Source: Pseudomonadota bacterium | GTDB taxonomy: Bacteria > Pseudomonadota > Gammaproteobacteria > Steroidobacterales > Steroidobacteraceae | Direction: 5' to 3' | Assembly (NCBI GenBank): GCA_021787615.1 | Contig: JAJYLP010000004.1 | Coordinates: 26,399-90,398 of the forward strand | Length of the DNA: 64,000 bases | Shown here: piece after piece, positions 42,866 through 61,211 of the stretch | Position numbering within the stretch: the stretch's first letter is position 1 | How the letters are laid out: each line of letters begins with the position of its first letter | Translations under genes and position numbers: made by a program | The notes under the pieces: generated by a model | What the model was told of the DNA's origin: nothing | Database searches by the model: none | The model's input: only the letters and a program-made list of their open reading frames with translations

Positions 42866-42985
42866 CCGCGCATGTTACACGGGAGAGCAGCCATTCCGGA
42901 TGAGCCCCCATACCCAGAGGGCCCGGGTCCCCGTATACTGCCGGCCTCGTGCCCGAGTGGCGGAATTGGTAGACGCAGCGGACTC

Positions 42986-43216
42986 AGACCAGACAACTTG
43001 AGCCCTCGCGGAGAAATCCGTGAGGTGAAGCCCGTCAAACTCGGTAGAGGCCCTGAGGTTCTCGAGCTCATGCCGAGCCAAGCCCCGCGCCCAGCGGGGA
43101 AGGTGTAGAGAGCAGACGGCGGGCACCTACGGCCGCAAGGCTATGGTGAAGGCGTGCTCCAGCCCACGAACCCGGCCGGCTCCAGCTGCCGGGGCGACGA
43201 AAGTCGAAGCGGGATG
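42986..43216 (+). ncRNA. Group I intron (IC3-like, ~231 nt, ORF-less) in the tRNA-Leu anticodon
   Basis: P2 hairpin CCTCGCGGA-GAAA-TCCGTGAGG (43004-43025); GCCGAGCCAAGCC (43072-43084); GAAGGTGTAGAGAGCAGACGGC...GCTATGGTGAAGGCGTGCTCCAG core with P7 pairing GAGCA/TGCTC; CGAC-GAAA-GTCG P9 (43195-43206); terminal G at 43216. Confidence 0.93.
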
Positions 43217-43245
43217 AAAATCCGCCGCCCTTAAAAGCGTGTCGG

Positions 43246-43265
43246 TTCGACTCCGACCTCGGGCA
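43246..43265 (+). repeat. att core copy 0 (3' end of tRNA-Leu), left boundary of array
   Basis: TTCGACTCCGACCTCGGGCA. Confidence 0.9.
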
Positions 43266-43789
43266 GACCCGCCTCTTCAGAGGCTCGCTTGGCGCCGGCG
43301 CTCGACAACCGCTCCGTTCGGTCGCGAGACACGCGAGGCACTGACCAGCCGGAGCTGATTGGCAGCCGCAGCAGCGTTCAGTACTCACTCGCCTCGGCGG
43401 CGCTGGAACATACCGACCGCAGCTCGCATGACACACGGGTCTTCCGGGCGTCCACTGCAACGACGGTTCTTCCTTTGCGCATGTCGTCCCCCTGGGGCCC
43501 TGCCCGAGTCCTCACCTCACAGTGCGGCAGCCGCCGGGGACGGCGGCGTGACGTTGACGGGCCGGTATCGGCCCTTCTGAGTCATTGGATCGGTATGGCA
43601 TGAGGCGTGAGGGGCACAGCGGACACTCCTGAGTTGGTCGATTACGGCACCGGATCTACGTGATCGTCTCGCGGTCCGGCCAGAATTCTAGCGCCTGAGG
43701 CAAGCCAGAACCCTTTTTTGCTTTGAGCTGTAAGAAGCCTCCGCCGCGAGCGACTATAGGTAATTGGAGATGGTCACTAGCGCGCCGGA

Positions 43790-44338
43790 ATGCCGGAAAA
43801 GAATCAGTCCACTCAAGCCTTAAGGGCGGATGAGACTTATCGAGAAGCGTCTGCAGCCTATGGCGGGGCGCTCAGCCGCCTTGCCCGTGGATACGAGGCA
43901 GAGCCCGAAAAACAAGGGGATCTCCTCCAGGAGATTCATATCGCGATATGGAAGAGTCTCGGTCGATTCAACGGTACCTGCTCGCTCCGGACCTGGGTAT
44001 TTCGAATCGCTCATAACGTCGCCGCATCGCACGTACTGCGCGAACGGCGTCGCAAGGGCGTAAGAATCGTCGGCCTTGAGGAATTGGACGCCGCCGCCGG
44101 CACGCCGGACAGTCTGCAAGCGGTAGCCGAACAGCAGGCGCTCGCGCGGCTCACGGATCTGATCAGGCAACTGATCCCGATTGACCGGCAGGTGATCCTT
44201 TCGTATTTGGAGGGCATGGACGCCGAGGCGATCAGCGATCTCACGGGTTTATCGACATCGAATGTTGCGACCAAGATCCACCGGATAAAGGAAGTACTTC
44301 GCAAACGCTTTGACGCGAGAGACTCAGATGAGCAATGA
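43790..44338 (+). CDS. ECF-type RNA polymerase sigma factor (cassette 1 cargo)
   Basis: QGDLLQEIHIAIWKSLGRFNGTCSLRTWVFRIAHNVAASHVLRERRR; IDRQVILSYLEGMDAEAISDLTGLSTSNVATKIHRIKEVLRKRF. Confidence 0.9.
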   Translation: MPEKNQSTQALRADETYREASAAYGGALSRLARGYEAEPEKQGDLLQEIHIAIWKSLGRFNGTCSLRTWVFRIAHNVAASHVLRERRRKGVRIVGLEELDAAAGTPDSLQAVAEQQALARLTDLIRQLIPIDRQVILSYLEGMDAEAISDLTGLSTSNVATKIHRIKEVLRKRFDARDSDEQ

Positions 44339-44891
44339 GCAAAAGCACCCTGACATGAAGCATCTTTGGCAAAGTCAGGCAGTTGAGGGCACGTCCATGT
44401 CTATAGACGAACTCCGGAACGCACTTGCGAAACTGAACAGAGTCGAGCGCAGACGCATATGGGCAGGTGGGCTGTTTTGCTTGCTGTTCCTCGGCGCTTT
44501 CGGTGCAGTACTTATCATGGCGGCCCCGATTCCCGTCGTGCGCGGCGGTGAATGCTTTTTCGCCATTGGTGCGGGATTCTTCTTGTTTCAGGTCATATTG
44601 GGTCTTCGACGAGCACCGGGAAAATTGCTGAGCCGGGGAGAGCCGGCGGCCTGTGCTGCATTCTACAGGTCAGCACTGGAACGACAGCGGAGGTTTTACC
44701 GCCGGTCAGCGCTCTGGTTTCCGCTTTTAATCTCGGCAACCTTGCTGCCAGTCATCCTGCTGATACCGGCTCTCAGGGTCATAATGATCCCTCTTTGGAT
44801 GCTGCTTGTCCCGTTCTGGATCTACGAAAGCGCGGGAATTGCGAGGAGGTCTCAACGCGAACTCGATGCGCTCAAGGCCGGTCTGAGGTAA
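44328..44891 (+). CDS. Two-to-four-TM membrane protein translationally coupled to the sigma factor (candidate anti-sigma)
   Basis: MSNEQKHPDMKHLWQSQ...; start overlaps sigma stop; hydrophobic segments. Confidence 0.65.
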   Translation: MSNEQKHPDMKHLWQSQAVEGTSMSIDELRNALAKLNRVERRRIWAGGLFCLLFLGAFGAVLIMAAPIPVVRGGECFFAIGAGFFLFQVILGLRRAPGKLLSRGEPAACAAFYRSALERQRRFYRRSALWFPLLISATLLPVILLIPALRVIMIPLWMLLVPFWIYESAGIARRSQRELDALKAGLR

Positions 44892-45344
44892 ATCTTTGGA
44901 GGCCAGCGAAAACTCCCGGGCATCAAATCTGGTCGCATGCTGACCACCTGCGGACGCCCTCGAGGCCGAGTTGCCGCGCTTGCGGAATGTCAGCTTTCCG
45001 GATTTGCGCTGAGCACTAGCTAACGACCGGCTGGAGCCGGGACTTGCTGGCCTGCAGCCCGAGTTCCGCGGACGCGCTTCCGTTCCGGCGCCGCCCCGAG
45101 CGGCCCGTCGCCCAGGACCGCAAAACTCCGGACCACCACCCCGCACAGCAGAGACTGCCACCGCACATAGGGCGTCCTGCGGCTTGCTCGCGCCATCCGT
45201 GGCGCGTGCCTCTACCGTGGGAGGACCGGCAGAGCCCCGGGAATGTCCATCAGGGCCGGAAGATGGCCTCGAAGGCGCCGGCGCAACGACGCCCGTCGCG
45301 GATTTGGCAGCGGTTCCCGGCTGACCGAGCTACGCCGTTGCGTT

Positions 45345-45362
45345 TCGGACATAAATGTCCGA
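45345..45362. promoter_or_regulatory. Perfect inverted repeat covering the hicA start codon (candidate HicB operator)
   Basis: TCGGACAT-AA-ATGTCCGA. Confidence 0.5.
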
Positions 45363-45585
45363 TACTGGCATTGTGAGGGGAAACGAATTCATCCGGAGGG
45401 TCCAGGCAATTGCCAAGGAGCGCCACCTCCCCTCGCGTGTGGATGAGAAGCGCGGTAAAGGACGCCATGTAACGCTCTACTTCGATGATCGGCGGACCGT
45501 TGTCCGCAACCCGAAGGACGAGCTGAAGACTGGAACGCTGCATGCAATGTGCAAGCAGCTCGGTATCGATAAGGCGGATTTATGA
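45355..45585 (+). CDS. hicA: HicA-like mRNA interferase toxin
   Basis: KRGKGRHVTLYFDDRRTVVRNPKDELKTGTLHAMCKQLGIDKADL. Confidence 0.85.
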   Translation: MSDTGIVRGNEFIRRVQAIAKERHLPSRVDEKRGKGRHVTLYFDDRRTVVRNPKDELKTGTLHAMCKQLGIDKADL

Positions 45586-46016
45586 ACGCACGACAGTTTA
45601 CGTATGCAGTGAAGTTGAGTGCGGAAAAAGGCGCTGGCGGATATGTGGTGACGTGCCGCGACCTGCCGGAGGCAATTACGCAGGGCGAAACGGTCGATGA
45701 TGCCCTCGCGGAAGCGGCGGACGCTCTTGAGGAAGCCATTGCTGGCCGTATCGACGACGGAGAAGTGATCCCCGCGCCCTCGCGCGCCAAGCGTGGCGAG
45801 CGTATGGTGAGTGTGCCGCCGTCGATGGCACTGAAGGCCGCCGTGTATCTCGCCGTTCAGCAGGCCGGCATCAGCAACTCCGAGCTCGCGCGTCGCATGA
45901 AACTCGACGAGAAGGAAGCGCGGCGCATTCTCGACCCGCATCACCCAACGAAGCTCCCGAGGATCGAGGAAGCCCTGTCGGTGCTCGGCCGGCACGTCGA
46001 ATTGGTTCTCGCGTAG
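45582..46016 (+). CDS. hicB: HicB-like antitoxin with C-terminal HTH
   Basis: AEKGAGGYVVTCRDLPEAITQGETVDDALAEAADALEEAI; ISNSELARRMKLDEKEARRILDPHHPTKL; ATGA overlap with hicA. Confidence 0.9.
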   Translation: MNARQFTYAVKLSAEKGAGGYVVTCRDLPEAITQGETVDDALAEAADALEEAIAGRIDDGEVIPAPSRAKRGERMVSVPPSMALKAAVYLAVQQAGISNSELARRMKLDEKEARRILDPHHPTKLPRIEEALSVLGRHVELVLA

Positions 46017-46202
46017 CGGGGGCCTGCCAGCGGGTGGGCTCCGGGCGACGGGATGCCCCTGGAGCGGCGGCGGCCGGTCAGTGAAAGGTTGTTTCCGGCT
46101 GCTCTTCACCTTCAGATCGTGCGACGAAAAATGGCTCTCGTTCGCCCCCGTCGCGCTGCTCAGCCTACGGGCCGAGAGGCGCAAAATACCCCCACGGCAG
46201 TG

Positions 46203-46222
46203 GGGGGTATACCTGGGGGTAC
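46203..46222 (+). repeat. Paired GGGGGTA motif upstream of att core copy 1
   Basis: GGGGGTATACCTGGGGGTAC; second motif 61 bp before core. Confidence 0.75.
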
Positions 46223-46275
46223 TTCTGTCCACGCAGTTATGGAAATGCAGTACTTGCCGGCGCTTTTGCGCCTGT

Positions 46276-46295
46276 TTCGACTCCGACCTCGGGCA
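46276..46295 (+). repeat. att core copy 1 (tRNA-Leu 3' end duplicate)
   Basis: TTCGACTCCGACCTCGGGCA identical to tRNA 3' end, followed by CCA. Confidence 0.92.
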
Positions 46296-46565
46296 CCATC
46301 AAATCTTCAAGCACTGCCGCGCACTGGACCTCGGCGTCCTGCGATCCGTCGCGCGGTGCCCAGCGAGCACGCAGGGTGCCGTGCTGGCGGAGCCGGTCGG
46401 TCGCGGCAGGCGGGATGGGGCACACGCCAATCCGTCCTCCAACGCGAGTCGCAGCGACCCAAACGTCTTTTTACGTTGCGCTGTTTTGGCGATGCCCAAG
46501 ACCGCACACTCACAGTGATGCGGTCGCCGGATCGACTAGAGTTGACTTCCGCTTCCGACTCTTCT
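46296..46565 (+). repeat. Left-end repeat of cassette 2
   Basis: Diverged ~270-bp family shared with 48408, 51277 and 53363: GAGCCGGTCGGTCGCGGCAGG, ACACGCCAATCCG, CTCACAGTGATGC, AGTTGACTTCCG. Confidence 0.75.
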
Positions 46566-46713
46566 GGGGCATTCGCCGCGCTCCAGAGCGGTCAGTGAGT
46601 TCTGGTAAAGCAGACATCCACCACAGACGTGAATCGACGCGTCTGAACAGCGCCACGGAACGGAACCTGCGGTCACAGATAATGCGCAAGAGCGATTGAG
46701 CGTTGCGTTCGTG

Positions 46714-47340
46714 TCACCGCGGACCTGCAAGAATTGCAGAATCAGCCATCTTTGCGATTGAGTCCTCTTGTTCTGAATCCGAGAAATGCGATGGCAATAC
46801 CAATTGAATCTGGTACAAGACGCGCCCCTGCTCCCACCAAAGGTTCGCGGGAGCACACGATCCCCCACAGCTCACGGCCCTAAAAAATCCACGGATTCCG
46901 TGTGCAAGCCTGATTGCGTGAACATTTGATAGCCGCTCTGGGCTGTAGCCCGGATTCGCCTTGGCGAAGAACATTCCAGCAAAGCCTGCGTCCCCGACTC
47001 CCACCTTGTAATACAGGGAAATGTAATACAGGGAAATCTGATATTCCTTTGGGGTCGCTTTGTCGACGGTCGCGTGACGGATCGTCTCAACGCCGCCGGG
47101 TAACGCGCTAGGCAACAAGATTGGAATGCGCGAGTTACCCTCAACCTTCGCCAGAGCGGATACGAGAACTCGTGGCAGAGACTTGGCACGAGCGGAATGT
47201 GCCGATGCGACGTATGAGGCAGCAATAGGGACCTGCACCGGCGATTCGGCGGCGCGACAGCCCACGGAGATGACGAAGATTGACACAACAGCCGGGACCC
47301 ACTCGGGTCTCAGACAACCCGTAAGCCCCCAATTTTGTAA
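46714..47340 (-). CDS. Hypothetical exported protein (upstream start uncertain)
   Basis: ...LPRVLVSALAKVEGNSRIPILLPSALPGG...GIRGFFRAVSCGGSCAPANLWWEQGRVLYQIQLVLPS...SAILAGPR, protein-like composition unlike antisense ORFs. Confidence 0.6.
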   Translation of the reverse strand, partial: LQNWGLTGCLRPEWVPAVVSIFVISVGCRAAESPVQVPIAASYVASAHSARAKSLPRVLVSALAKVEGNSRIPILLPSALPGGVETIRHATVDKATPKEYQISLYYISLYYKVGVGDAGFAGMFFAKANPGYSPERLSNVHAIRLAHGIRGFFRAVSCGGSCAPANLWWEQGRVLYQIQLVLPSHFSDSEQEDSIAKMADSAILAGPR

Positions 47341-47565
47341 AGCGTTCACATCCAGTACCCCCGGCGCCAGTGTGCGCGCCTCCGACGAATGTCCGCAAAC
47401 GGGAAGCTCGATCTGGCCTGGTATCGGTCCGCTCTTGGCCAACTGCTACCCCGACGCGCGGATATCGCACGGTTCCGAGTCGGCTTCCGGCACGCTTAAG
47501 GCCAGCCGCGACAGTGCTATTATTTTATGCTAGTTTATGATACAGTCATCTTGCTGGAATACCAC

Positions 47566-47832
47566 ATGCCTTCAAGCTACACACTGGGTGAACACTTCGA
47601 GAGCTTCGTCAAGGAGCAAGTCGAAGGTGGGCGGTACTCATCCGCGAGCGAGGTCGTTCGAGACGGATTGCGGCTCCTGGAGGAGGAGCAGCAGCGGCGC
47701 CAGGCCGTGCTCGAGGCTCTTCGGGGAGAAGTCGTCAAAGGCCGGCGCGGCGGCAAACCGAAGCCCGCTGCGGACGTACTGGACCGTCTCGAGCGCAAAT
47801 ACACCAAAATGACCCGGGACTCCGGGAAGTGA
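47566..47832 (+). CDS. parD: ParD-like antitoxin
   Basis: SSYTLGEHFESFVKEQVEGGRYSSASEVVRDGLRLLEEEQQRRQAVLEALRGEV. Confidence 0.92.
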   Translation: MPSSYTLGEHFESFVKEQVEGGRYSSASEVVRDGLRLLEEEQQRRQAVLEALRGEVVKGRRGGKPKPAADVLDRLERKYTKMTRDSGK

Positions 47833-48126
47833 ATGGCCGCGTACTTCACCCCACAGGCGGAAATCGACTTAGAAGAGATCGGCGACTACATCGCGCTGGA
47901 TAACCCGAGGCGCGCGGTGACATTCATCCAAGAAATTCGGCGACACTGCGAGAAAATCGCCGATGCCCCAATGAGCTATTTGGCGCGCCCGGACCTCGGT
48001 GACGCGATCCGCATCTGCGTACATGGGAATTACCTCGTCGTGTTCGAGCCGTTCTCGGACGGTGCTCTCATCCTGCGCATCCTCCATGGCGCACGGCATC
48101 TGCCCGGAATATTCGGCAGTCAGTGA
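47833..48126 (+). CDS. parE: ParE/RelE-like toxin
   Basis: MAAYFTPQAEIDLEEIGDYIALDNPRRAVTFIQEIRRHCEKIADAPMSYLARPDLGDAIR. Confidence 0.92.
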   Translation: MAAYFTPQAEIDLEEIGDYIALDNPRRAVTFIQEIRRHCEKIADAPMSYLARPDLGDAIRICVHGNYLVVFEPFSDGALILRILHGARHLPGIFGSQ

Positions 48127-48312
48127 CCGAGGATGCCGGCCCCGGACTCGACTGAACAAGCAACTCAATCGCGCCAGCCGCGAACTTTTTCGGAGCACGG
48201 CAACGTCCAATTGCGAATGACTCTTCGTGCATCCGGCAATCAAAGTCGAGATGACGTCTACGGCGGTGAGAGATATCGCCGCATGGACATGCGCGGCCTC
48301 ACCGACTGGGCT

Positions 48313-48333
48313 GGGGGTACCGAGTGGGGGTAC
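48313..48333 (+). repeat. Paired GGGGGTAC motif upstream of att core copy 2
   Basis: GGGGGTACCGAGTGGGGGTAC; second motif 62 bp before core. Confidence 0.75.
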
Positions 48334-48388
48334 TCCGACCCAATTTCCTGACCGTCTCTCAGTAATTTCAGTTACTTATGCCCAGAGA

Positions 48389-48407
48389 TCGACTCCGACC
48401 TCGGGCA
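48389..48407 (+). repeat. att core copy 2
   Basis: TCGACTCCGACCTCGGGCA followed by CCA. Confidence 0.92.
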
Positions 48408-48670
48408 CCATCAACTCTTCAAGCATTGCAGTGCGCTGGACCTCGGCGTCCCCCGCTCCGTCGTGGGGCGCGCAGCGAGCCGCACAGGACGCTGGCCGCC
48501 AGCGAGCACTCGCCACTTCTCAAGCGCGACGTGGGTCTACCGCGTATTGAGCAACGACGTCAGCGCCTTCTTAATGTTACTCCTGTGCAGTGACACACAA
48601 GGCTCCGCTCTCACAGCAATGCACCCGCGGAGTAATATAGAGCCGACTTCCGGTTCCGACCCAAAGCTGC
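48408..48670 (+). repeat. Left-end repeat of cassette 3 (most diverged)
   Basis: CCATCAACTCTTCAAGCATTGC...CTGGACCTCGGCGTC matches 46296 start. Confidence 0.65.
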
Positions 48671-48796
48671 GGTCTGGGACCAGCGCTAGATTGCCGCGCG
48701 CCCTCCAACTTGCATACCCACGGTCGCAGCTTGATCTGACAGGAAGTCTGTCTCGATCCGATTGATATATTCGGCCGCTTGATTCAACACACCGTA

Positions 48797-49345
48797 ATGC
48801 CGCCAAATAACTCGCAGGAAGAATCATCACTGATCGTCATATCGCCCTACGATCCGTCGTGGCCAATCATGTTCGAAGTCGAGACGCAGACTCTCGAGCG
48901 AATTCTCACACCTTGGATCGTTGGCCCGATTGAGCACGTAGGAAGCACTGCGGTTCCCGGCCTTGCGGCAAAGCCGGTGATCGACATCATGGTTGCCGTT
49001 GCCACTTTGGCAGCATCTCGTCCGGCAATATCTGCGGCGGCAGAAGCAGAATACATGTACTGGCCGCACAGAGCTGATGTAATGCACTGGTTCTGCAAAC
49101 CTTCGGCCGTTCGTAGAACGCATCATCTCCACTTGATTCCCTACGGCAGCGAACTCTGGCAAGCTCGGCTCGGCTTTCGAGACGCGTTGAGAGCAGACTC
49201 TGATCTAGCAAAAGAGTACGCTCAGCTAAAATATCATCTCGCTGCCAAACATCGATATGATCGCGAGGCTTACACAGAATCGAAAACAGAATTTGTCCAG
49301 CGGGTTCTTGCATCCCTCGGCTTAGCTCAACCAGGCAACAGCTAA
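48797..49345 (+). CDS. GrpB family (UPF0157-like nucleotidyltransferase) protein
   Basis: IVISPYDPSWPIMFEVE...IVGPIEHVGSTAVPGLAAKPVIDIMVAV; HHLHLIPYGSELW. Confidence 0.88.
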   Translation: MPPNNSQEESSLIVISPYDPSWPIMFEVETQTLERILTPWIVGPIEHVGSTAVPGLAAKPVIDIMVAVATLAASRPAISAAAEAEYMYWPHRADVMHWFCKPSAVRRTHHLHLIPYGSELWQARLGFRDALRADSDLAKEYAQLKYHLAAKHRYDREAYTESKTEFVQRVLASLGLAQPGNS

Positions 49346-49416
49346 CGCCCGCCGAGTCGAGCCCAATGGAGTGCGCCGATCAGCCCAAGCGTTGAATGAG
49401 TGCTTGTAGCCGTCCC

Positions 49417-50286
49417 TTAAGCCCTTTTTAGCAGCGTCGGGTATCCATTCGTTTGCAGCTCTGCCACCACCTTGTCTGTCAACTTCCAGGCGTCACCCTT
49501 CAGGCGAACCACGAGATCGTTCCAGACTCGCCCGAACGCCTCGACCGCATCATCGTCGCTGAAATGGACACCCGCGGGCAACAAGGGCGCGATGTCTTCC
49601 GTCAGGCTGCGCGTCAATTTCTCCAGCATGCGCTGTTCAGCCACGGCACGCGTTATGGACACGCCCTCGAGGGACAAATAGTGCTCGAAGCTCGCCACCA
49701 GCCGATCGGCATCCAACGCCAATTCCTTCAATCCCTCTCCAAGATCAAACAGGTCACGGTTCTTACGCCGCTGCAGTAGTGCGCGGAATTTTGTACCGAA
49801 CAGTTCTTCAGGTTCGAAAGACGCGATTTCGGCCTTGCCCTGATACCAGTCGCTCTCGACTGCGAAGGGGTAGTGGCGAACGCCAAACAAGCTCTCTTGT
49901 TCACGCGTATTGATTTCGACCTTCAGCTTCAACGCCGATTGTGTGGCTTCCGGGGTAAACTTAAACACCACGTGCATTGAATGTCCCGCCTGCTCTCTGC
50001 TACACCTGCCCAGCCACGCGAGCGCTTTTCGGATCGCATCGACTGTGGCACCGATCGGCTCCGGCCGGGTCTGCACCAAGTCAATGTCATCGGAATAGCG
50101 CAGCGGCTGCCGGAACAGCAGCTTATGAATCGCGGTACCACCGCGAAACGCGATCCTGCCGCGCAGAGCCGGTGCGCTGAACAGGTCGCACAGCGCGCGG
50201 CAGATAATGAGATCCTGCTCCACCTGCCGCAAGTCAGGCCATGGTGATTTGGCGCTCCACGCCTGAATATAGGCCCGGGGAATCAA
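49417..50286 (-). CDS. abiEii: AbiEii nucleotidyltransferase toxin
   Basis: RIAFRGGTAIHKLLFRQPLRYSDDIDLVQTRPEPIG; EELFGTKFRALLQRRKNRDLFDL. Confidence 0.88.
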   Translation of the reverse strand: MIPRAYIQAWSAKSPWPDLRQVEQDLIICRALCDLFSAPALRGRIAFRGGTAIHKLLFRQPLRYSDDIDLVQTRPEPIGATVDAIRKALAWLGRCSREQAGHSMHVVFKFTPEATQSALKLKVEINTREQESLFGVRHYPFAVESDWYQGKAEIASFEPEELFGTKFRALLQRRKNRDLFDLGEGLKELALDADRLVASFEHYLSLEGVSITRAVAEQRMLEKLTRSLTEDIAPLLPAGVHFSDDDAVEAFGRVWNDLVVRLKGDAWKLTDKVVAELQTNGYPTLLKRA

Positions 50287-51101
50287 GCGTCGGCCTCGAT
50301 CGACTCATTGAGGATCAGCCTCCACCGGGTCACCTTCTCGTGCAGTCCCGGCAGCCCTTCGATCAATGGTTTCACGGAAGGATCGAGCAGCACGGCCGTC
50401 TTGGATTTCTGAACAAAAGGACGCAGCGCATCCGCTTGCTGTACGTGACGCACGCGCTCCAACAAATAGCCGAGCCGACGCACCGATGAGTTCTCGTAGT
50501 GGGCGGCGAGCTTGGCCAGCCGCTGCGGTCGCGCCTGCGCACCCAGGTCTTTCACGATCTGGGCCACGGCGTTGATGCCACCCGCCCTGTGGAAATACCG
50601 TACACAGTCGAGCAGCGTCAATTCGATGCCGGCCACTTTCGCGAAGCCCGCGTCGCTCTTCAGCGAGTTCAGCCAATCTTCTCGATTGACATCGGCGAAG
50701 GCCGTGGGATTTTGATAGACGAACTCCAGACGGTGCCGACCGATCTCGAAGCCGCGCAGCTGCTTCGGCACCATCACCTGAAACACCATCGACGCCTGAT
50801 GCGAGGCGCCGTGGAACGCGGCGGCACGCAGTAAACCGATGCGATAGTCGAGCTGCAGGTATTTCATCAGCGGGTCGATCCAGCGCGCCGGATCGGGCGC
50901 ACCAATGTTGCGGTCTTCCGGGCGCAGAATCAGATAGAAACCATGCCGGGGGCTCGCTAGGCGGTTCTTCCCGGCTTGCCGCATGAGCGCCATGCTCAAG
51001 GCCTCAGACGACAGACCAAGCGTCGCCTGCGCTTCCTCCCTCAGGAAGTACGCACGGCCGTGGGCAAGGCGATCTTCCATGTACTGCTCAAGATTTTGCA
51101 T
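50283..51101 (-). CDS. abiEi: AbiEi antitoxin / transcriptional regulator
   Basis: RAYFLREEAQATLGLSSEALSMALMRQAGKNRLASPRHGFYLIL; ATGA overlap with abiEii. Confidence 0.88.
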   Translation of the reverse strand: MQNLEQYMEDRLAHGRAYFLREEAQATLGLSSEALSMALMRQAGKNRLASPRHGFYLILRPEDRNIGAPDPARWIDPLMKYLQLDYRIGLLRAAAFHGASHQASMVFQVMVPKQLRGFEIGRHRLEFVYQNPTAFADVNREDWLNSLKSDAGFAKVAGIELTLLDCVRYFHRAGGINAVAQIVKDLGAQARPQRLAKLAAHYENSSVRRLGYLLERVRHVQQADALRPFVQKSKTAVLLDPSVKPLIEGLPGLHEKVTRWRLILNESIEADA

Positions 51102-51112
51102 TCCCAAATCAT

Positions 51113-51147
51113 ATACGAAAACATACGAATTTTGTATATTTTTGCAT
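51113..51147. promoter_or_regulatory. Candidate AbiEi operator: 17-bp imperfect dyad
   Basis: ATACGAAAACATACGAA-T-TTTGTATATTTTTGCAT just upstream of abiEi. Confidence 0.5.
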
Positions 51148-51181
51148 ATGACTTGGGAGTCGCGAGCTGGACCTCCTCATC

Positions 51182-51201
51182 GCGGGTACGGCTGCGGGTA
51201 T
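51182..51201 (+). repeat. Degenerate paired GGGTA motif upstream of att core copy 3
   Basis: GCGGGTACGGCTGCGGGTAT; aligned second motif 63 bp before core. Confidence 0.6.
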
Positions 51202-51256
51202 AGGCGCCATGCCTGATACGATATCTCCTTAGGATTCAGTGCAATGGCGGGTCTCA

Positions 51257-51276
51257 TTCGACTCCGACCTCGGGCA
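51257..51276 (+). repeat. att core copy 3
   Basis: TTCGACTCCGACCTCGGGCA followed by CCA. Confidence 0.92.
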
Positions 51277-51555
51277 CCATCAACGATTCAACCATTGCGG
51301 CGTCGCAATGGCCCCAGAGTCCCGCGCCCCCGTCGTGGAGCGCCCGGCCAGCGACCCGCAGCGCAGTGCCGTGGGAGCCGGTCGCTCGCGGCAGGTCAAA
51401 TGAGGTACGCGCCAATCCGGCCATCAACGCCGACGCCATCGACATTGATGTCTATTTGATGTTGCCGTTCTTTTTAGCTATCCCCAGGGCCGCGCAATCG
51501 GAGTGATGCTCCCTCCGGACTCAGTGAGTTGACTTCCGCGCCGAACCTTGGTCAG
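51277..51555 (+). repeat. Left-end repeat of cassette 4
   Basis: GAGCCGGTCGCTCGCGGCAGG, ACGCGCCAATCCGGCC, GGAGTGATGC, GAGTTGACTTCCGC shared with copies at 46296 and 53363. Confidence 0.75.
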
Positions 51556-51575
51556 CCTATGCGGTTCCACATAAC

Positions 51576-51968
51576 CTAACCGGCAGCCGGATGTCTGTCA
51601 CTAATGTTGCTGGTGGCCCGCAGGAATGCCCGTGTCTTGATGTTCCACGCCAACAGACATCCCACCCCAATAGCACCAGGCAACATATACCACCAGGGTG
51701 ACTGGAATTGTCTTGGAGCCCAAAAACTCAGGAACAGAAACGACAAAACCGCCACAAATAATGCCGACACAATCTTTGGATCTCGTCCGGCTCGGCGTTT
51801 GGCAGAACGCAGAAGCGGAGCCCTTTCTGTCGGTCGGACCATTTTTAGCATTGGAAATAGAAACGAAACCCAAGCGGTTCGCCGCGCCGCACGATATTCG
51901 CGTTCTCGCTCAGCATCCGACAGAATCCTTGACGCGATCCAATTGGCTTCAATTCGGGAGAGCCGCAT
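51576..51968 (-). CDS. Small membrane protein, unknown
   Basis: 130 aa with two TM helices (KIVSALFVAVLSFLFLSFW, WYMLPGAIGVGCLLAWNI). Confidence 0.5.
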   Translation of the reverse strand: MRLSRIEANWIASRILSDAEREREYRAARRTAWVSFLFPMLKMVRPTERAPLLRSAKRRAGRDPKIVSALFVAVLSFLFLSFWAPRQFQSPWWYMLPGAIGVGCLLAWNIKTRAFLRATSNISDRHPAAG

Positions 51969-52188
51969 TGTTCTAGGCTTAATCCCAAGGATAAACCATT
52001 GTCATTTCGTCTTTATCAGACGCCTTCAGGGCCACCAAGAACGGAACTCGGCAGCTTAAGGGTCATCGCAGCACTGCCGAACGCCCGCGTACGCGCACTG
52101 TACGCAACGTCGAAGGAGCGACCAGAGACTGCGCGGGATCGGCTAGAGACACACAGCACAGCATAGCGTTCGTGAATATGCCCTGTTA

Positions 52189-52587
52189 CTACGCAATCCA
52201 ATCCTCAAGCCGAATGCCATCGATCCGCGAGAACTCTCGTGTGTTATGTGTAACTAGAATGATGTCCAGCGCATGCGCATGACTTCCGATGAGCGTATCG
52301 AGCGGACCAATCGGTCTCCCCTGCTGCTCGAGCGATGCACGGACCTCCCCATAGGTCATTGCGGCGCCTTCATCGAAACCCGCAACCTCGAGCGGCAACA
52401 GAAATTCGCCCAGTGCGTCATGCGCAACCTTGGGGCGACTACTTTTTGCCGCGCCGAAAGTGAGTTCGCCCAACGTAATTGACGAAATTCCGACCTGTCC
52501 GATCGCCTTGCCGCGTATCTTCTTAAGCGCGACCGGATTCTTTTTGATGATGGCGATGCACGTGTCCGTATCCAGCATCCATTTCAC
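52189..52587 (-). CDS. vapC: VapC PIN-domain toxin
   Basis: MKWMLDTDTCIAIIKKNP...ISSITLGELTFGAAKS...GPLDTLIGSHAHALDIILVTHNTREFSRIDGIRLEDW. Confidence 0.95.
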   Translation of the reverse strand: MKWMLDTDTCIAIIKKNPVALKKIRGKAIGQVGISSITLGELTFGAAKSSRPKVAHDALGEFLLPLEVAGFDEGAAMTYGEVRASLEQQGRPIGPLDTLIGSHAHALDIILVTHNTREFSRIDGIRLEDWIA

Positions 52588-52817
52588 TGCAGCGGCTCCC
52601 GCCGCTCGGCTTCACGTGGCTGCTCGCGTTCGTTCATGAAATCTGCCGGAAACTTATCCAGGCTCTGAACCAGCGTATCCCACGATTTGGCTTTGGGCAG
52701 AAGTACGACCGCACTGCCGACGCGCTTGATCAGCACCTCTGCTCCGGCAAAGCGGAACTCCTTTGGAAGCCGTACCGCCTGGCTGTCCCCGTTCTTGAAG
52801 AGCTTGGCCGTTTTCAC
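52584..52817 (-). CDS. vapB: VapB antitoxin (GTG start)
   Basis: VKTAKLFKNGDSQAVRLPKEFRFAGAEVLIKRVGSAVVLLPK; overlaps vapC start. Confidence 0.93.
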   Translation of the reverse strand: MKTAKLFKNGDSQAVRLPKEFRFAGAEVLIKRVGSAVVLLPKAKSWDTLVQSLDKFPADFMNEREQPREAERREPLQ

Positions 52818-52961
52818 GAATGCACCTTGGTCTTTATTACATATAGATAAATAATATATATCCGGGTGGATTCTGTCAAGCGCACTGTCTCTGACCACTT
52901 GTAGTCCCCCCACCAGCCGCCTTCGCCCAGGTCGCCGCTAGCGAGGCGCGGGAACTCCTCT

Positions 52962-53159
52962 CCCGGCAAGACACGCATCACGATCAGGATCGATGACGAC
53001 GTCATCGAAGCATTCCGTGTCAAAGCAGAAGCGGCCGGGCGCGCCTACCAGACCCTCATCAACGAGGCGCTGCGCGCCGCGCTTACCGAAAATGATCGGC
53101 CCTTGACCGCCAAAGTGATGCGCGAGGTCGGTCGGGAAGAGCTTGCGCACGCTCGGTGA
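52962..53159 (+). pseudogene. BrnA/CopG-like antitoxin remnant lacking a start codon
   Basis: PGKTRITIRIDDDVIEAFRVKAEAAGRAYQTLINEALRAALTENDRPLTAKVMREVGREELAHAR*; upstream in-frame stop, no ATG/GTG/TTG. Confidence 0.7.
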
Positions 53160-53267
53160 CGCGATCGAGCAGGCCCTCTCGCGGCGATTCGAGGTGTCGC
53201 CGCATGGACAAGCGCGGCGCTCACCATCTGGGCTTGGGGTATACCGCAGACATGACGGAGACCGGCG

Positions 53268-53288
53268 GGGGGTATGACCTGGGGGTAC
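53268..53288 (+). repeat. Paired GGGGGTA motif upstream of att core copy 4
   Basis: GGGGGTATGACCTGGGGGTAC; second motif 62 bp before core. Confidence 0.75.
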
Positions 53289-53342
53289 CTTTCGCCGCAG
53301 ACCCGCCGCGGGACATTGAAATTCAACTAGTTGCGGCGGTAT

Positions 53343-53362
53343 TTCGACTCCGACCTCGGGCA
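53343..53362 (+). repeat. att core copy 4
   Basis: TTCGACTCCGACCTCGGGCA, followed by GACCC as at the intact tRNA gene. Confidence 0.92.
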
Positions 53363-53630
53363 GACCCAGCACTTCCGGCACCGCCGCGGATTGAATGCTC
53401 GGCGTCTCGTGCTTCGTTGCGAGTAGAACGGAGAGCCAGGACAGGCGCTGTGCCGCGGTAGCCGGTCGGCCGCGACAGGCCCGAATGAGGTACACGCCAA
53501 TCCGGCCGCCAGCGCGGGTGGCAGCGGCACCGGCGCCTTTTCGATGCTGCCCTCTTTTCGGCGATGCCAGGGGCGCACACTCACAGTGATGCATCCGCGG
53601 GATCGCATCGTGTCGAGTTCCGCTTCCAAC
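53363..53630 (+). repeat. Left-end repeat of cassette 5
   Basis: TAGCCGGTCGGCCGCGACAGG, TACACGCCAATCCGGCC, TTTTCGGCGATGCCAGGGGCGCACACTCACAGTGATGC shared with 46296. Confidence 0.75.
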
Positions 53631-53801
53631 CCACTGCTGCCGCTCATACGGTCTCGGGTTCTGCGGCTGGTCACAAAGTGCAGCGGTCGTTGAATCGACC
53701 GATCCGGAGGACATCCGGCTGACTCACGACATCCGCATCAACTGCCGGCTTGCTTCGGACCAGGGGGGGTCCTAGGAGATCGCGCCGACCAGCGCCATGG
53801 C

Positions 53802-55691
53802 TCAAAGTTTCGTGAAGCCATCACTGCTCCACTCTTCCGAGCCGACTCCGTGGTGAGCGAAGAAGAGGCCGTCGGGATCGTATTTCTGCTTAATCCTGGC
53901 GAGCCGTGAATAGCTCTCGCCCCAGAAAGCCTGCCGCCACCCCTTCTTGAAGTAGTTGGTTTCGTTCACGTAGGAGCCGCTCTGCCCCGCAACGGCGCGA
54001 AGTCGCTCCATGCAGCGCCCGATCGCTTTCGCGGCGGCGCGTCCCCTGGCGACCTCGGGCTCATGCCCCGGAATTCCCGGATACGCGGGGCCTTCCCCAT
54101 TGGCCACGATCGCGAGCGCAAAGGCGGTGAGAACCGCCGGATTGGTGGCCGTATCTCTTGCGGCGGCAATTGCCTCGGGCCGGGCACCGGCGAGACCTTT
54201 GTTGAAATGCAATTCGATCCAGGCGTGCCGTGATGCGGCGAACAAGGTATCGGCAAGCCTCCCCTGGGAATTGCTCGCGAGCAGGGAAGCGGGCATCCAC
54301 AGCGAGTCGTAACCCCAAATGTACCAGCCAACCTGACCCCCATCGGCGTCCCACCAGAAATCCGACGGGGCCGCACCGGGCCGATCGTCTCGATGAAAAA
54401 GTGGCTCGTGCATCACACGCACGAGGACGTCGTCCAAGATCGCGTGGAACGGATTGCCGTTGCGCGGATATACGATTTCCGGCCAATGCTCAGCGAGCCA
54501 GCCGGCATCCCACATGCGTCGGGCGGGGAGGCTTCCATTCGCGAACCGCCCGGGAATCGAAAATCCGAGCGGTGATGACTTCACCCAGTCCAGGAACGGC
54601 TGCCAGACTGCTCGCAGCTGCTCGTCATTCAGTCCCTGCGAGAGCAGGTCAATCTCGAGGATGTTGTCGCCGCGTACGTGCACCTGCTCTCCCCAGTGCT
54701 GATTGAACAGATGCGCGGAGTAGAAGCTGACGAACTCTCGCAGCAGCCTCCGGTAGGCGTCGTCCGAGGGCGCTTTGATCTTGAAGTTCGTGACGCCAAA
54801 ATACTCAGGGAGATCGTGCGTGCGGACGGTGAGCTTGCTCACTGCCGCGAAGGAGCCGCCGCCGCCGCCCTTGAGCGCCCAGAACAGGTCGGGATGGGTG
54901 CAGGCGTTGGCGATCCGGGTGCGACCGTCTGCCGTGACGACCTCTGCCTCAAGCAGATTTCCCGCTCCCGTTCCGTAGCGCTTGGAAAAGCTTCCGAAGC
55001 CCCCTCCCAGGATGAGTCCGGCAACACCCACCGTCGTGCAGCCCCCGCCCTGGACGTACCGCCCACCTTCGGTCGTAACCGCCTCGTAAGCCTTGAGCCA
55101 GCAAGTTCCCGCGCCCATGGTGACAGCGGGTTGTGGCGCGATCTTGCCTTCGCAGCCCCGAGGCACGAACGCGGCATGCATCTCGACGTCGGTCATGTGA
55201 CGCGTCCAGATCAGCAGCGAATCGGGCGCATTCGAGGCGCCGATGTAGCTGTGTCCACGACCTTTGATGACCAACCTCAGATTGTTGTCGCGCGCAAAGT
55301 TCACCGCCGCGGCGATGTCGTCCGCATTCCGCGCCACCACCGCATAGACGCTGGGTTGGGTCCGCCAGGCATCGACCCAGCCGAAAGTCTCGGTCAGCCC
55401 GGGCTGGTCGGCGACATAGTAGGGGTTTCTGATCTCCTTGCCGAACTGCCGGGCGGCGACGCTGTTCGGCGCGGCTTTGACGACATCGATCGGAAAGCTG
55501 ACCGGAATCAGGTTCCCATCCACCCGGGCTTTCAGGGCGGCCCACTCATCCGCCTTCGGCCAGCCGGCATCGGTGGGCCGTACGCGGCGGATGAGACCTC
55601 TCCCGGCGAGCGGATCGGCCGACGCTGCTCGAGGCAGAAGCGCAAGAACGGAAGCGACTGACAAGCCCGTGAGAATCTCTCGTCTGCGCAT
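53802..55691 (-). CDS. FAD-binding (berberine-bridge-like) oxidoreductase with twin-arginine-like signal
   Basis: MRRREILTGLSVASVLALLPRAASA; NLRLVIKGRGHSYIGASNAPDSLLIWT; GGGCTTVGVAGLILGGGFGSFSKRYG. Confidence 0.88.
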   Translation of the reverse strand: MRRREILTGLSVASVLALLPRAASADPLAGRGLIRRVRPTDAGWPKADEWAALKARVDGNLIPVSFPIDVVKAAPNSVAARQFGKEIRNPYYVADQPGLTETFGWVDAWRTQPSVYAVVARNADDIAAAVNFARDNNLRLVIKGRGHSYIGASNAPDSLLIWTRHMTDVEMHAAFVPRGCEGKIAPQPAVTMGAGTCWLKAYEAVTTEGGRYVQGGGCTTVGVAGLILGGGFGSFSKRYGTGAGNLLEAEVVTADGRTRIANACTHPDLFWALKGGGGGSFAAVSKLTVRTHDLPEYFGVTNFKIKAPSDDAYRRLLREFVSFYSAHLFNQHWGEQVHVRGDNILEIDLLSQGLNDEQLRAVWQPFLDWVKSSPLGFSIPGRFANGSLPARRMWDAGWLAEHWPEIVYPRNGNPFHAILDDVLVRVMHEPLFHRDDRPGAAPSDFWWDADGGQVGWYIWGYDSLWMPASLLASNSQGRLADTLFAASRHAWIELHFNKGLAGARPEAIAAARDTATNPAVLTAFALAIVANGEGPAYPGIPGHEPEVARGRAAAKAIGRCMERLRAVAGQSGSYVNETNYFKKGWRQAFWGESYSRLARIKQKYDPDGLFFAHHGVGSEEWSSDGFTKL

Positions 55692-55910
55692 GCTCGAGCC
55701 TTTCTTGCTGCTCTGAAGGTACGGATCCCCTGCGTTCACGGGGCTCGGGGCCCCCGCATGCCTCTGCCAACCGCGCTTTCCTGATGCGCAATGCAACGCC
55801 GGGGTGTGACAGGAAAGCGCAAACGCTAGCGAACTTCGTCTCTGGCCGCCAGTAGCAAGGTGACGAGCGGCGCCCCTCAGGGACGAAAGGCGCCCTGCAG
55901 GTGAGCAGAT

Positions 55911-56771
55911 TCAGCGAAGCAGGTGCTGGAGGCGATCGCGATAGCGGCGGCTGAGATTCACGAAGCTGCCATCGTGCAGCACGATACGATAGTCGCCATG
56001 GTCCCAGGGCTGGATCTCCCGGATCCGATCGAGGTTGACGAGATGCCCGCGATGGACCCGTACGAACCGCTTCTGATCCAGCTTCTTCTCCAAAGCTGCG
56101 AGCGACTCCCGCCTGGGATAGGCCGTCCCCTGAGCGTGCACGGTCACGTAGTTTCCATTGGCGTCGATCCGGTCGATATCGGAGACGTTCAGGACGTACT
56201 CCCGGTTGAGTTTGCGCACGATCAGACGTTCGGGGGGCGTCTCGCCTGGGGGATTCTCGGTTGACAGCGCCGCTTTGCCGGTTCGGGCCTCCGACCAGAA
56301 CCCGTAAAGGCGAAACGCCATGATGCCGACGACCACCGCCCAATATGTGATGAAATCTTTTCGATACTCGTAAAGCCAGTTCGGCCACCAGCGGCCGAAG
56401 TCGTAATGCTGCCCCAGAAACCGGTACGCCCCATCGCGCAGTGCCACCATGCCAGCCACATGAACAAGCGAGAACGGCAGCGTGGCGAGCAGATGCGCCG
56501 GGAGATTGCGCAGCCAGCCCGGCGGGGTCACCGGAAACTGAGTGAGCCACCACCCGACCGCCGGGATGAGCAGCGCGATGCAGATGACGCTGGAGGTCTC
56601 CCATATGACGGGCTGCCACACTGGCAAGTGGACCCCGAGGCGCTCCCAATTGGTCATCGTCGTGTACACGTTGGACACGGCGACGACCGCCAGCAGGATG
56701 ACGAAGAACGCCATTTGCTGAAGAAAGACTGTGCGTGCGCTGTGCGGATTGAGTTCCGGGGAGGTGTCCAT
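55911..56771 (-). CDS. Membrane-anchored LytTR-family transcriptional regulator
   Basis: Four hydrophobic segments then KLNREYVLNVSDIDRIDANGNYVTVHAQGTAYPRRESLAALEKKLDQKRFVRVHRGHLVNLDRI. Confidence 0.88.
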   Translation of the reverse strand: MDTSPELNPHSARTVFLQQMAFFVILLAVVAVSNVYTTMTNWERLGVHLPVWQPVIWETSSVICIALLIPAVGWWLTQFPVTPPGWLRNLPAHLLATLPFSLVHVAGMVALRDGAYRFLGQHYDFGRWWPNWLYEYRKDFITYWAVVVGIMAFRLYGFWSEARTGKAALSTENPPGETPPERLIVRKLNREYVLNVSDIDRIDANGNYVTVHAQGTAYPRRESLAALEKKLDQKRFVRVHRGHLVNLDRIREIQPWDHGDYRIVLHDGSFVNLSRRYRDRLQHLLR

Positions 56772-57162
56772 CGTGATCGACCTGTCTACCCAATGCAATT
56801 ATTGCCCAGACCTGGAAGGATCGCATTGTTTAGAGCCACCCTGGTCCTCTCGGCTAGCTCGTGCGGTTCGATCGTCCGATTCCGCGACCGAGCTTCCCAG
56901 GCGCCTACCCGGCCCGAATGGGCTGCGTGCTCACTGATGTCGCCGAAACTGGTGCCGCCTGCTACGTACATCGCCGGCGCCTTTCTCGGTCGCGGCGAGC
57001 CGACCCACGCGTACTGGTCGATCCTTCATACGTTCAACGGCCGGTATCAGAGTGAAGCGGCGTCTCGATTGGTTGGTCTATGGAAACGACGAGCGGCAGC
57101 AGCTGGCCGGCCGGAGACGCCAAGCACGCGCGGCACAGCGCAGCGCCCATCAACACACTCCG

Positions 57163-57506
57163 TTACTGCGCAATCCAATCTTCGAGTCGAAGGCCGTCGA
57201 TCCGCGAGAACTCTCGTGTGTTATGTGTGACTAGAACGATGTTCAGCGCATGCGCATGACTGCCGATGAGCATATCGAGCGGCCCAATCGCGCTCCCCTG
57301 CTGCTCGAGCGATGCACAGACATCCCCGTAGGTCATTGCGGCGCCGTCATCGAAACCCGCAACCTCGAGCGGCAACAGAAATTCGTTCAGTGCGTCATGC
57401 GCCACCTTGGGACGGCTACTCTTTGCCGCGCCGAACATGAGTTCGCCCAACGTAATTGACGAAATTCCGACCTGCCCGATCGATTTGCTGCGTATTCTCT
57501 TAGGTG
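57163..57506 (-). pseudogene. 5'-truncated vapC paralog of 52189..52587
   Basis: IGQVGISSITLGELMFGAAKSSRPKVAHDALNEFLLPLEVAGFDDGAAMTYGDV...LRLEDWIAQ; lacks the first ~25 residues; nearly identical DNA stops at ~57506. Confidence 0.85.
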
Positions 57507-57653
57507 ATGCGCGAAAACGTCCGGGAAGCCCTTGCGCACGCTCGGTGAAGCGATCGAGCCGACCCTTAGCGGCGATGCGAGGCATCGCCGCATGGACATG
57601 CGCGGCGCTCACCGGCTGGGCTGGGGGTCGCGGATCGCGGCCGCAAAGCACCG

Positions 57654-57674
57654 CGGGGTACCGGATCGGGGCAC
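57654..57674 (+). repeat. Degenerate paired GGGGTA motif upstream of att core copy 5
   Basis: CGGGGTACCGGATCGGGGCAC; second motif 61 bp before core. Confidence 0.65.
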
Positions 57675-57727
57675 TTCGACCCAATTCCGGGCCGTTTCTT
57701 ATTTGGAATCAGTGACTTGTGCCAGAG

Positions 57728-57746
57728 TTCGACTGCGACCTCGGCA
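57728..57746 (+). repeat. att core copy 5 (right boundary of array, diverged)
   Basis: TTCGACTGCGACCTCGGCA, one substitution and one deletion. Confidence 0.75.
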
Positions 57747-58075
57747 CCACCCTTGCGAGCGTCGCTGTGGTCCGCCCGGCGACGCTGCTCGACCGGAACA
57801 GGGAACGCTTGAACGCCATCGCACGAAACGGTGAGCCAGTAGGCGCGCGGCTGTGCGCCGCGTGGCCGCAGCCGCAGATTTAGCCTTTGTCTTTGAGCCG
57901 TCCGGCTCCGGGCCGATAGCGCCGTCAGCGGCGCTTGTGCGGTCGGCCCCCGTCTGCGAGTGTGACCGGCCGCACGAGTCCGCCCACCCCGGAGCCGGGA
58001 CAGGCCCATCAGTGAGTGAAAACGTGAAATGCAGTCCCATCCGCCTCCGGCGGCACCCTTAATTTGCTGATTGCC

Positions 58076-60022: not shown

Positions 60023-60132
60023 GGCCGAGCGCGGGATCCTGCTGTCGACAAGGGCGCCCGGCCACCGTATGCTGGCGCAGGTTCATCCGCGCTTAAGCCT
60101 CATGCGCGTTGCCTCCGTCATCGCCTGACACC

Positions 60133-60672
60133 ATGAATTTCTGCAGCCAATGCGGCGCGCGACTGACGGTGCGCGTCCCTCCCGGCGATCATCTGCCGCG
60201 CTACGTGTGCGATGCGTGCGGCGCCATCCATTACCAGAACCCGCGCCTGGTCGTCGGCTGCGTGCCCGAGCACGATGGCCGCATTCTGCTGTGCCGGCGC
60301 GCGATCGAGCCGCGCCGCGGCTTCTGGACGGTGCCGGCGGGGTTCATGGAAAACGGCGAGACGCTGCAGCAGGCGGCGGCCCGCGAGTCACGCGAAGAGG
60401 CGCTCGTGGAAGTCGAGATCGGCTCTCTCCTGTCGGTGGTGCACGTGCTGCATGCGCAGCAGGTCCACGTGTTCTTTCGCGCCACCATGCCCAAGGGGGA
60501 GCACCAGGCCGGGCCGGAGAGCCTGGAAACAGCGCTGGTGCGGCCCGATGACATCCCCTGGAGGGAACTCGCCTTCCCGAGCACGGAATTCAGCCTGCGC
60601 CGCTTCCTGGAGGACCGCGCCGCAGGGCGCGAGGTCCATCACTTTACTGCCCTCGCACGGCGGCTCAGCTAG
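60133..60672 (+). CDS. NUDIX hydrolase with N-terminal zinc ribbon
   Basis: MNFCSQCGARL...YVCDACGAIHYQNP; GFMENGETLQQAAARESREEALVEV. Confidence 0.9.
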   Translation: MNFCSQCGARLTVRVPPGDHLPRYVCDACGAIHYQNPRLVVGCVPEHDGRILLCRRAIEPRRGFWTVPAGFMENGETLQQAAARESREEALVEVEIGSLLSVVHVLHAQQVHVFFRATMPKGEHQAGPESLETALVRPDDIPWRELAFPSTEFSLRRFLEDRAAGREVHHFTALARRLS

Positions 60673-60845
60673 CCGCGTTCGAGCCCGGGGGCGCTTTGCG
60701 GGCCGCCGGCGCGACATGGCACAATATTTGTCGTTGTTGCGGACGTCTGTAACCCTCCGGCTCAAGCTACTGTTCACGCCGTGCGCGGCGCCGTTTCCGG
60801 TGATGGGCGAATGCGGCCTAGTCCGTTGATCCAGAAGGAATTCCG

Positions 60846-61169
60846 ATGACTTTCGTGGTGACTGAAAACTGCATCAAGTGCAAGTACATGGACTGCGTGG
60901 AAGTGTGCCCCGTGGATTGCTTTCACGAGGGCCCGAACTTTCTCGTCATCGATCCGGACGAGTGCATCGATTGCACCTTGTGCGAGCCGGAGTGCCCGGC
61001 GGAGGCGATCTTCTCCGAGGAGGAGCTGCCGGACGGCCAGGAGTCATACAAGCCGCTCAATGCCGAACTCGCCAAGCAGTGGCCGGTGATCACGGAAAAG
61101 AAGGAAGCGCCCGCCGACGCCAAGGAATGGGACGGCAAGCCGGACAAACTCAAGCTCCTGGTGCGTTAG
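60846..61169 (+). CDS. fdxA: Seven-iron ferredoxin FdxA
   Basis: [55 protein letters not shown]. Confidence 0.95.
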
Positions 61170-61211
61170 CGCGCCACAGGCGGGTGTACGCGGCGAGTGC
61201 CGCGCGGGCGT

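Follow-up and report, generated by a model that had tools for sequence, protein, structure and literature searches.

Tandem integrase-free cassettes at a tRNA-Leu gene of a Steroidobacteraceae genome share arm-type sites with P4-type integrase elements

Results

We analyzed a 64,000-nucleotide stretch (the window) of contig JAJYLP010000004.1 from a gammaproteobacterium of the Steroidobacteraceae, in which a tRNA-Leu(CAA) gene is followed by a tandem array of five small cassettes separated by copies of the last 20 bp of that gene. The cassettes contain no integrase. Deep relatives carry an empty tRNA-Leu site, and whole cassettes are found at other positions and in other species of the genus. 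Most cassettes end in the same arm-type sites as elements with P4-type integrases, and in two relatives such an integrase lies directly behind the same tRNA. The likely explanation is a P4-type integrase working in trans on nonautonomous units that resemble cis-mobilizable elements (CIMEs), with an integron-like, reshuffled stockpile at tRNA-Leu(CAA) as the result.

The earlier note on this DNA had described a 20-bp tRNA-Leu 3′ end, TTCGACTCCGACCTCGGGCA, recurring in direct orientation, and a diverged copy at 57728. We found both. The core is exact (20/20) at 43246, 46276, 51257, and 53343 and agrees at 19 of 20 positions at 48388; the distal copy (57728-57746, TTCGACTGCGACCTCGGCA) has two differences. 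With up to three mismatches allowed, TTCGACTCCGACCTCGGGCA has five matches in the window, compared with none in 100 shuffles, and the tRNA-Leu array is the only locus with the core in the 3.73-Mb assembly to which the window belongs. The host gene and the cores are as follows.

42951..43265, + strand, tRNA-Leu(CAA), attB host gene; intron-less relatives read GCGGACTCAAAATCCGC at the position of its anticodon-loop insert
43246..43265, + strand, core in the tRNA 3′ end, from the T-loop to the discriminator base
46276..46295, + strand, core copy 2, junction of cassettes 1 and 2
48388..48407, + strand, core copy 3 (19/20)
51257..51276, + strand, core copy 4
53343..53362, + strand, core copy 5
57728..57746, + strand, degenerate distal core, boundary between array and chromosome; the array of genome G008 closes with the same boundary sequence

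The anticodon loop of the host gene holds an insert of about 231 bp (about 42986-43216) that is present in some species of the genus and absent in others. Because of this interruption, ARAGORN miscalls the 3′ part of the gene as tRNA-Phe. No group I intron reached the Rfam gathering score in the window; the insert of one relative gave a weak match to the group I intron family RF00028 (E 0.0028, below gathering).

As the earlier note had proposed, the cores delimit five cassettes, which lie between tRNA-Leu and a chromosomal GGDEF-nudix-fdxA-xerD block.

43266..46275, + strand, cassette 1 (3.0 kb): extracytoplasmic function sigma factor 43790-44338, membrane protein 44310-44891, HicA 45373-45585, HicB 45582-46016
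46296..48387, + strand, cassette 2 (2.1 kb, right-end family II): ParD 47527-47832, ParE 47833-48126
48408..51256, + strand, cassette 3 (2.8 kb): GrpB 48779-49345, AbiEii 49417-50286 (-), AbiEi 50283-51107 (-)
51277..53342, + strand, cassette 4 (2.1 kb): hypothetical protein 51576-51968 (-), PIN toxin 52189-52587 (-), MazE-like antitoxin 52584-52913 (-)
53363..57727, + strand, cassette 5 (4.4 kb, composite): FAD/BBE oxidoreductase 53802-55796 (-), LytTR regulator 55911-56798 (-), PIN remnant 57163-57684 (-)

Their cargo is mostly toxin-antitoxin and defense genes. Cassettes hold one to five open reading frames, and both strands are used, so they are not the promoterless, usually single-gene units in one orientation that make up an integron. 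All are flanked by attachment (att) sites and lack integrase and transfer genes, as CIMEs do. Since none of the five carries a recombinase gene, action in trans is the key step in our interpretation. The cargo had been described as unrelated, which does not hold for cassettes 4 and 5. In a self-comparison, 52149-52525 matches 57126-57502 at 88% and 53115-53359 matches 57504-57744 at 71%. The last 620 bp or so of cassette 5 are thus a deleted copy of cassette 4. Cassette 5 is therefore a fusion, and its PIN remnant derives from a cassette-4-like unit.

Similarity between junctions extends beyond the 20-bp core: about 250 to 300 bp on the 3′ side of the internal cores, and 150 to 200 bp before most cores of the window, are related between cassettes at 60 to 80%. 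The right ends fall into four families (I to IV). The first 250 to 300 bp of the cassettes (43266-43605 and the other starts) are conserved beyond what an attachment site usually needs, and a search for conserved RNA structure in the cassette ends gave nothing convincing. On the left side, three of the five non-tRNA cores in the window are preceded, 54 to 56 bp upstream, by paired GGGGGTA sites, and the genome has no other pairs of this kind.

46187..46221, + strand, arm-type sites TACCCCC-8-GGGGGTA-5-GGGGGTA, 54 bp 5′ of the core
48313..48332, + strand, arm-type pair GGGGGTA-6-GGGGGTA, 56 bp 5′ of the core
53268..53287, + strand, arm-type pair GGGGGTA-6-GGGGGTA, 55 bp 5′ of the core

Of the 58 genus genomes, 12 contain the full motif TACCCCC-8-GGGGGTA-5-GGGGGTA, as against none of 368 genomes from elsewhere in the class, and every match that we inspected adjoins a core. 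GGGGGTA-type arm sites together with a T-loop core are also the pattern of P4-type islands in this genus.

We then compared the locus among the 58 genomes of the genus, all of which are metagenome-assembled genomes (MAGs) on short contigs. The order queA - tRNA-Leu - nudix - fdxA - xerD is conserved. In G002, G055, and G039 the site is empty, and nudix follows directly after the tRNA, within about 100 bp. Arrays built in the same way occur in at least 17 of the 58 genomes (our own count of loci with non-tRNA core copies), and states with one, two, and six or more cassettes were found; seven cores lie on contig C51 of G050 and eight on contig C23 of G048. The refuting outcome named in the earlier note was the same segments in the same order with no empty site. 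We found the opposite, both empty sites and reordered cassettes, and the varied cassette numbers and positions support its proposal of serial site-specific integration at one attB. From these loci we collected 39 core-to-core units with a median length of 2.2 kb, a set that includes a few overlapping records. All but one measure 1.0 to 4.5 kb, and the outlier is a 513-bp unit with a doubtful core. PIN, PemK/MazF, MazE, Fic, AbiE, ParE, and DUF6036 families are abundant among their proteins. The core-junction pattern had no match in viral contigs, and there was no DNA match for cassette 1 in plasmid records or for cassette 2 in phage records.

Several of the units have been exchanged between species. 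A G012 cassette placed first behind the tRNA matches cassette 3 (2849 bp) from end to end at 91.7% identity. For cassette 1, the counterpart lies in G061 between two other cassettes; the two agree at 97.6% over 2551 bp and differ in the first 460 bp or so. Cassettes 2 and 5 of G050 correspond to cassettes 5 and 6 of G048 at 97.5% and 97.9%, full length; G050 cassettes 3 and 4 are precisely missing in G048 between shared neighbors, and in G048 the shared cassettes are preceded by the front half of G050 cassette 6, which gives another order. G048 cassette 4 is a hybrid of G050 cassettes 6 and 4. For every cassette shared over its full length, at least one flank shows no more than background identity beyond the core (0.43 to 0.54, compared with a null median of 0.47). 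Shared cassettes are 91.7 to 97.9% identical, against 71 to 85% for tgt, queA, GGDEF, nudix, and xerD in the same pairs of species; fdxA, a short, slowly evolving gene, reaches about 91%. Because the cassettes are more alike than most flanking genes and their homology is bounded by the core, they must have moved between species recently, as units. The core variant TTAGACT stays with the left cassette when arrays are compared, and the exchange point therefore lies to the right of core base 3. We also considered cassette 2 as a transposed cassette, since its ParDE part is 95.9% identical to cassette 1 of G006. This was rejected, because the agreement is confined to the ParDE part and the right end.

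The arm sites point to a recombinase. Outside the array, GGGGGTA pairs in the genus lie mostly between a tRNA gene (Cys, Ala, Asn, or Leu) and the start of a P4-type integrase, a tyrosine integrase with an arm-binding domain (PF13356). A 13-kb element at tRNA-Leu(UAA) of G010 has integrase-proximal arms and, at its distal end, an arm pair followed by a core, built like the left ends of the cassettes. In G059 and G044, P4-type integrases of 398 and 393 amino acids, 86% identical, start about 170 to 200 bp behind the tRNA-Leu(CAA) of the array locus, and G059 carries integrase-less cassettes as well. Right ends of family IV are homologous to those of the integrase elements (scores of 31 to 39 for four cassettes; maximum of 23.5 in 500 shuffles). 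The G059 element (L044, 1-5686), whose integrase gene is at 391-1587 of L044, also encodes a plasmid-type replication initiator (PF10134, RPA), which suggests that it may be an integrating plasmid-like element.

For integrases we used a P4-seeded profile, as a profile seeded with Xer-like proteins misses the P4-type integrases near GGGGGTA sites. With it, we found no integrase in the array loci besides the chromosomal xerD and the G059 element. The genome of the window has no P4 integrase homologue at E ≤ 1e-30, only fragments; its PF00589 matches are xerD, xerC, and three others on other contigs. A PF13356 integrase next to a tRNA, present in G059 and G044, is absent from the window and from its genome. 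Since its own genome has no intact P4 integrase homologue, the window array is probably orphaned, subject to assembly gaps. The 25 Pfam families most often found in the cassettes include no serine recombinase, and no search was aimed at serine recombinases.

Beyond the array lies the conserved chromosomal flank.

58064..62141, no strand assigned, conserved chromosomal flank: GGDEF-TPR protein 58064-60022 (+), nudix 60133-60672 (+), fdxA 60846-61169 (+), xerD 61212-62141 (-)

Other loci of the comparison gave observations of their own. In another species (L022; G005 contig C200, 3516-14250), a second, unrelated tandem array sits at the same tRNA-Leu. It has repeats of about 60 bp, from the anticodon arm to CCA, with TTACACAT repeats before the core, and its cargo includes a TOTE primase-helicase, Fic, DUF4143, and ChrB; an integrase was not found there. 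An 11-kb element at tRNA-Leu (L038; G062 contig C69, 7783-18801) has a distal P4-type integrase that faces inward and adjoins a second whole-tRNA-half repeat. L198 (G043 contig C78) and L199 (G008 contig C12) have GGGGGTA arm pairs with a different core, GGTCCGGCCCCGGGCACCA, as in tRNA-Leu(UAA), and their junctions suggest that similar tandems may exist at another tRNA. Two contigs binned as Acidobacteria (L075 and L087) carry the gammaproteobacterial array locus described here; they are probably mis-binned, since L075 begins with the 3′ end of the same intron-type tRNA-Leu.

Discussion

We propose the following model. Each unit has a right end, followed by accessory genes (in many cases for toxin-antitoxin or defense functions) and by a left end that in most units bears paired GGGGGTA arm sites, and it closes with a core identical to the final 20 bp of the tRNA. 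Cores would be recombined in their T-loop part by a P4-type tyrosine integrase (Arm-DNA-bind_3, PF13356), whose source would be autonomous elements targeting this tRNA in relatives. Units could then enter or leave the array, change their order, and spread from species to species without damage to the tRNA. The common sites and the location of the two integrases suggest that the enzyme acts on the cassettes in trans; the model also predicts excised circles and a route by which cassettes travel between cells. In the genome of the window, the integrase would have been lost and the array left orphaned, like an integron without its integrase.

Several findings weigh against this model. In G059 and G044 the contigs stop within the integrase elements, and the distal ends lie outside the sequence. 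We detected no similarity between right-end families I to III and the right end of the G044 integrase element. At two of the five non-tRNA junctions of the window (51257 and 57728) there are no good arm sites. The G012 and G061 MAGs are 6% contaminated, and G012 has two tRNA-Leu contigs, which indicates a strain mixture.

Serial accretion and decay would explain the array differently: each cassette was once a full P4 island that lost its integrase, and the result is a CIME stack on which nothing ever acted in trans. Accretion is the accepted route to tandem CIMEs (PMC5704250), and decay by fusion is seen in cassette 5. The resemblance of family IV right ends to those of integrase elements, and the loss of the integrase from the genome of the window, fit as well. 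We nevertheless think this unlikely. Apart from the G059 element, the array loci contain no integrase remnant, and complete units are uniformly small (median of 2.2 kb, most 1.0 to 4.5 kb). Moreover, integrase-less units were exchanged recently between species, with 97 to 98% identity and core-precise boundaries, and therefore move now without an integrase of their own.

Homologous recombination, by natural transformation or transfer of chromosomal segments, could also shuffle an old island through its 150- to 300-bp ends, and the core would then be a relic. We regard this as improbable. Between G050 and G048, and between the window and G012, homology breaks at the 20-bp core and the ends differ at background level, whereas exchange through the ends would fit the difference in the first 460 bp between cassette 1 and its G061 relative, the relatedness of ends within families, and hybrids such as that of G050 cassettes 6 and 4. 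The fixed spacing of the arm sites and the use of one att site in both empty and array states also speak against recombination through the ends.

Mobilization by XerC/XerD, in the manner of integrative mobile elements exploiting Xer, is very improbable: xerD lies about 3.5 kb beyond the distal end of the array, but it is equally placed in empty-site relatives (G002), so this position is ancestral and XerD was rejected as the driver, and the arm sites are of the kind found beside P4-type integrases. Xer recombinases are not known to have an arm-binding domain.

A trans-acting P4-type integrase may have consequences beyond this locus. The broader proposal, to which we give an even chance, is a genus-wide system of capture and stockpiling in which a P4-type tyrosine integrase takes the place of IntI, the tRNA-Leu 3′ end that of attI, and double-strand arm-and-core sites that of attC; the integrase, supplied in trans, would capture and reorder integrase-less cassettes and trade them between species, and orphan stockpiles would persist once it is lost. 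If this is true, integron-like stockpiling of small adaptive cassettes is not limited to IntI and attC and can arise from ordinary tRNA islands once the integrase works in trans. Many of the cassettes stockpiled here are toxin-antitoxin and anti-phage modules. Small integrase-less genes beside tRNAs may form a large mobile pool, one that island finders requiring an integrase would miss. The proposal can be tested, since the comparison defines the sites, the arm motif, the junctions of donor and acceptor, and two candidate integrases.

The resemblance to an integron that had been pointed out earlier holds for behavior and fails for membership. Like integrons, the arrays collect reshuffled accessory cassettes at a fixed site, are rich in toxin-antitoxin genes, and include orphans without an integrase. 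Unlike integrons, they have multigene cassettes in both orientations, a tRNA as insertion point, and double-strand att sites with arm repeats, and the recombinase implicated is P4-type rather than IntI. We found no attC-like single-strand folding (z-scores of -0.06 and -0.15 for the two strands of 40 junctions), and the window array has no tyrosine recombinase gene that could be an IntI beside an attI.

CIMEs and the tandem accretion described for ICESt1-related elements of Streptococcus (PMC5704250) are also att-flanked units without integrase or transfer genes, in tandem at one site and mobilizable by a related element, and here candidate accretion partners lie at the same tRNA in G059 and G044. 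The present arrays differ in having up to six or more units of about 2 kb, largely with defense and toxin-antitoxin cargo, in their P4-type arm sites, in their recurrence across the genus (at least 17 of 58 genomes), and in the exchange of whole units between species. The ssrA islands of Dehalococcoides (PMC3146451) are likewise tandem islands 3′ of an RNA gene, with a 20-bp repeat of its end and a motif 5′ of each repeat, and the window shares this layout, with the 3′ end of an RNA gene repeated in tandem and a conserved motif on the 5′ side. Those islands reach about 12 kb, use a serine recombinase (DsiB), and have an integration module in 16 of 31 cases, about half (PMC3146451), whereas the cassettes here are small, have tyrosine P4-type arm sites, and have no integrase in the window. 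P4-family islands of this genus have a PF13356-PF22022-PF00589 integrase 3′ of a tRNA, with GGGGGTA-type arms and a T-loop core; the cassettes, at about 2 kb, lack both the integrase and the integrase-proximal arm sites. Tycheposons, marine tRNA-anchored cargo islands of which some have no recombinase of their own, serve here only as a lead. We found no description of a P4-based array of this kind in the open-access literature. CIME accretion and the Dehalococcoides ssrA islands are the closest known systems; the novelty lies in finding together numerous small cassettes without integrases, arm and core sites of the P4 type, recurrence across the genus, and exchange between species.

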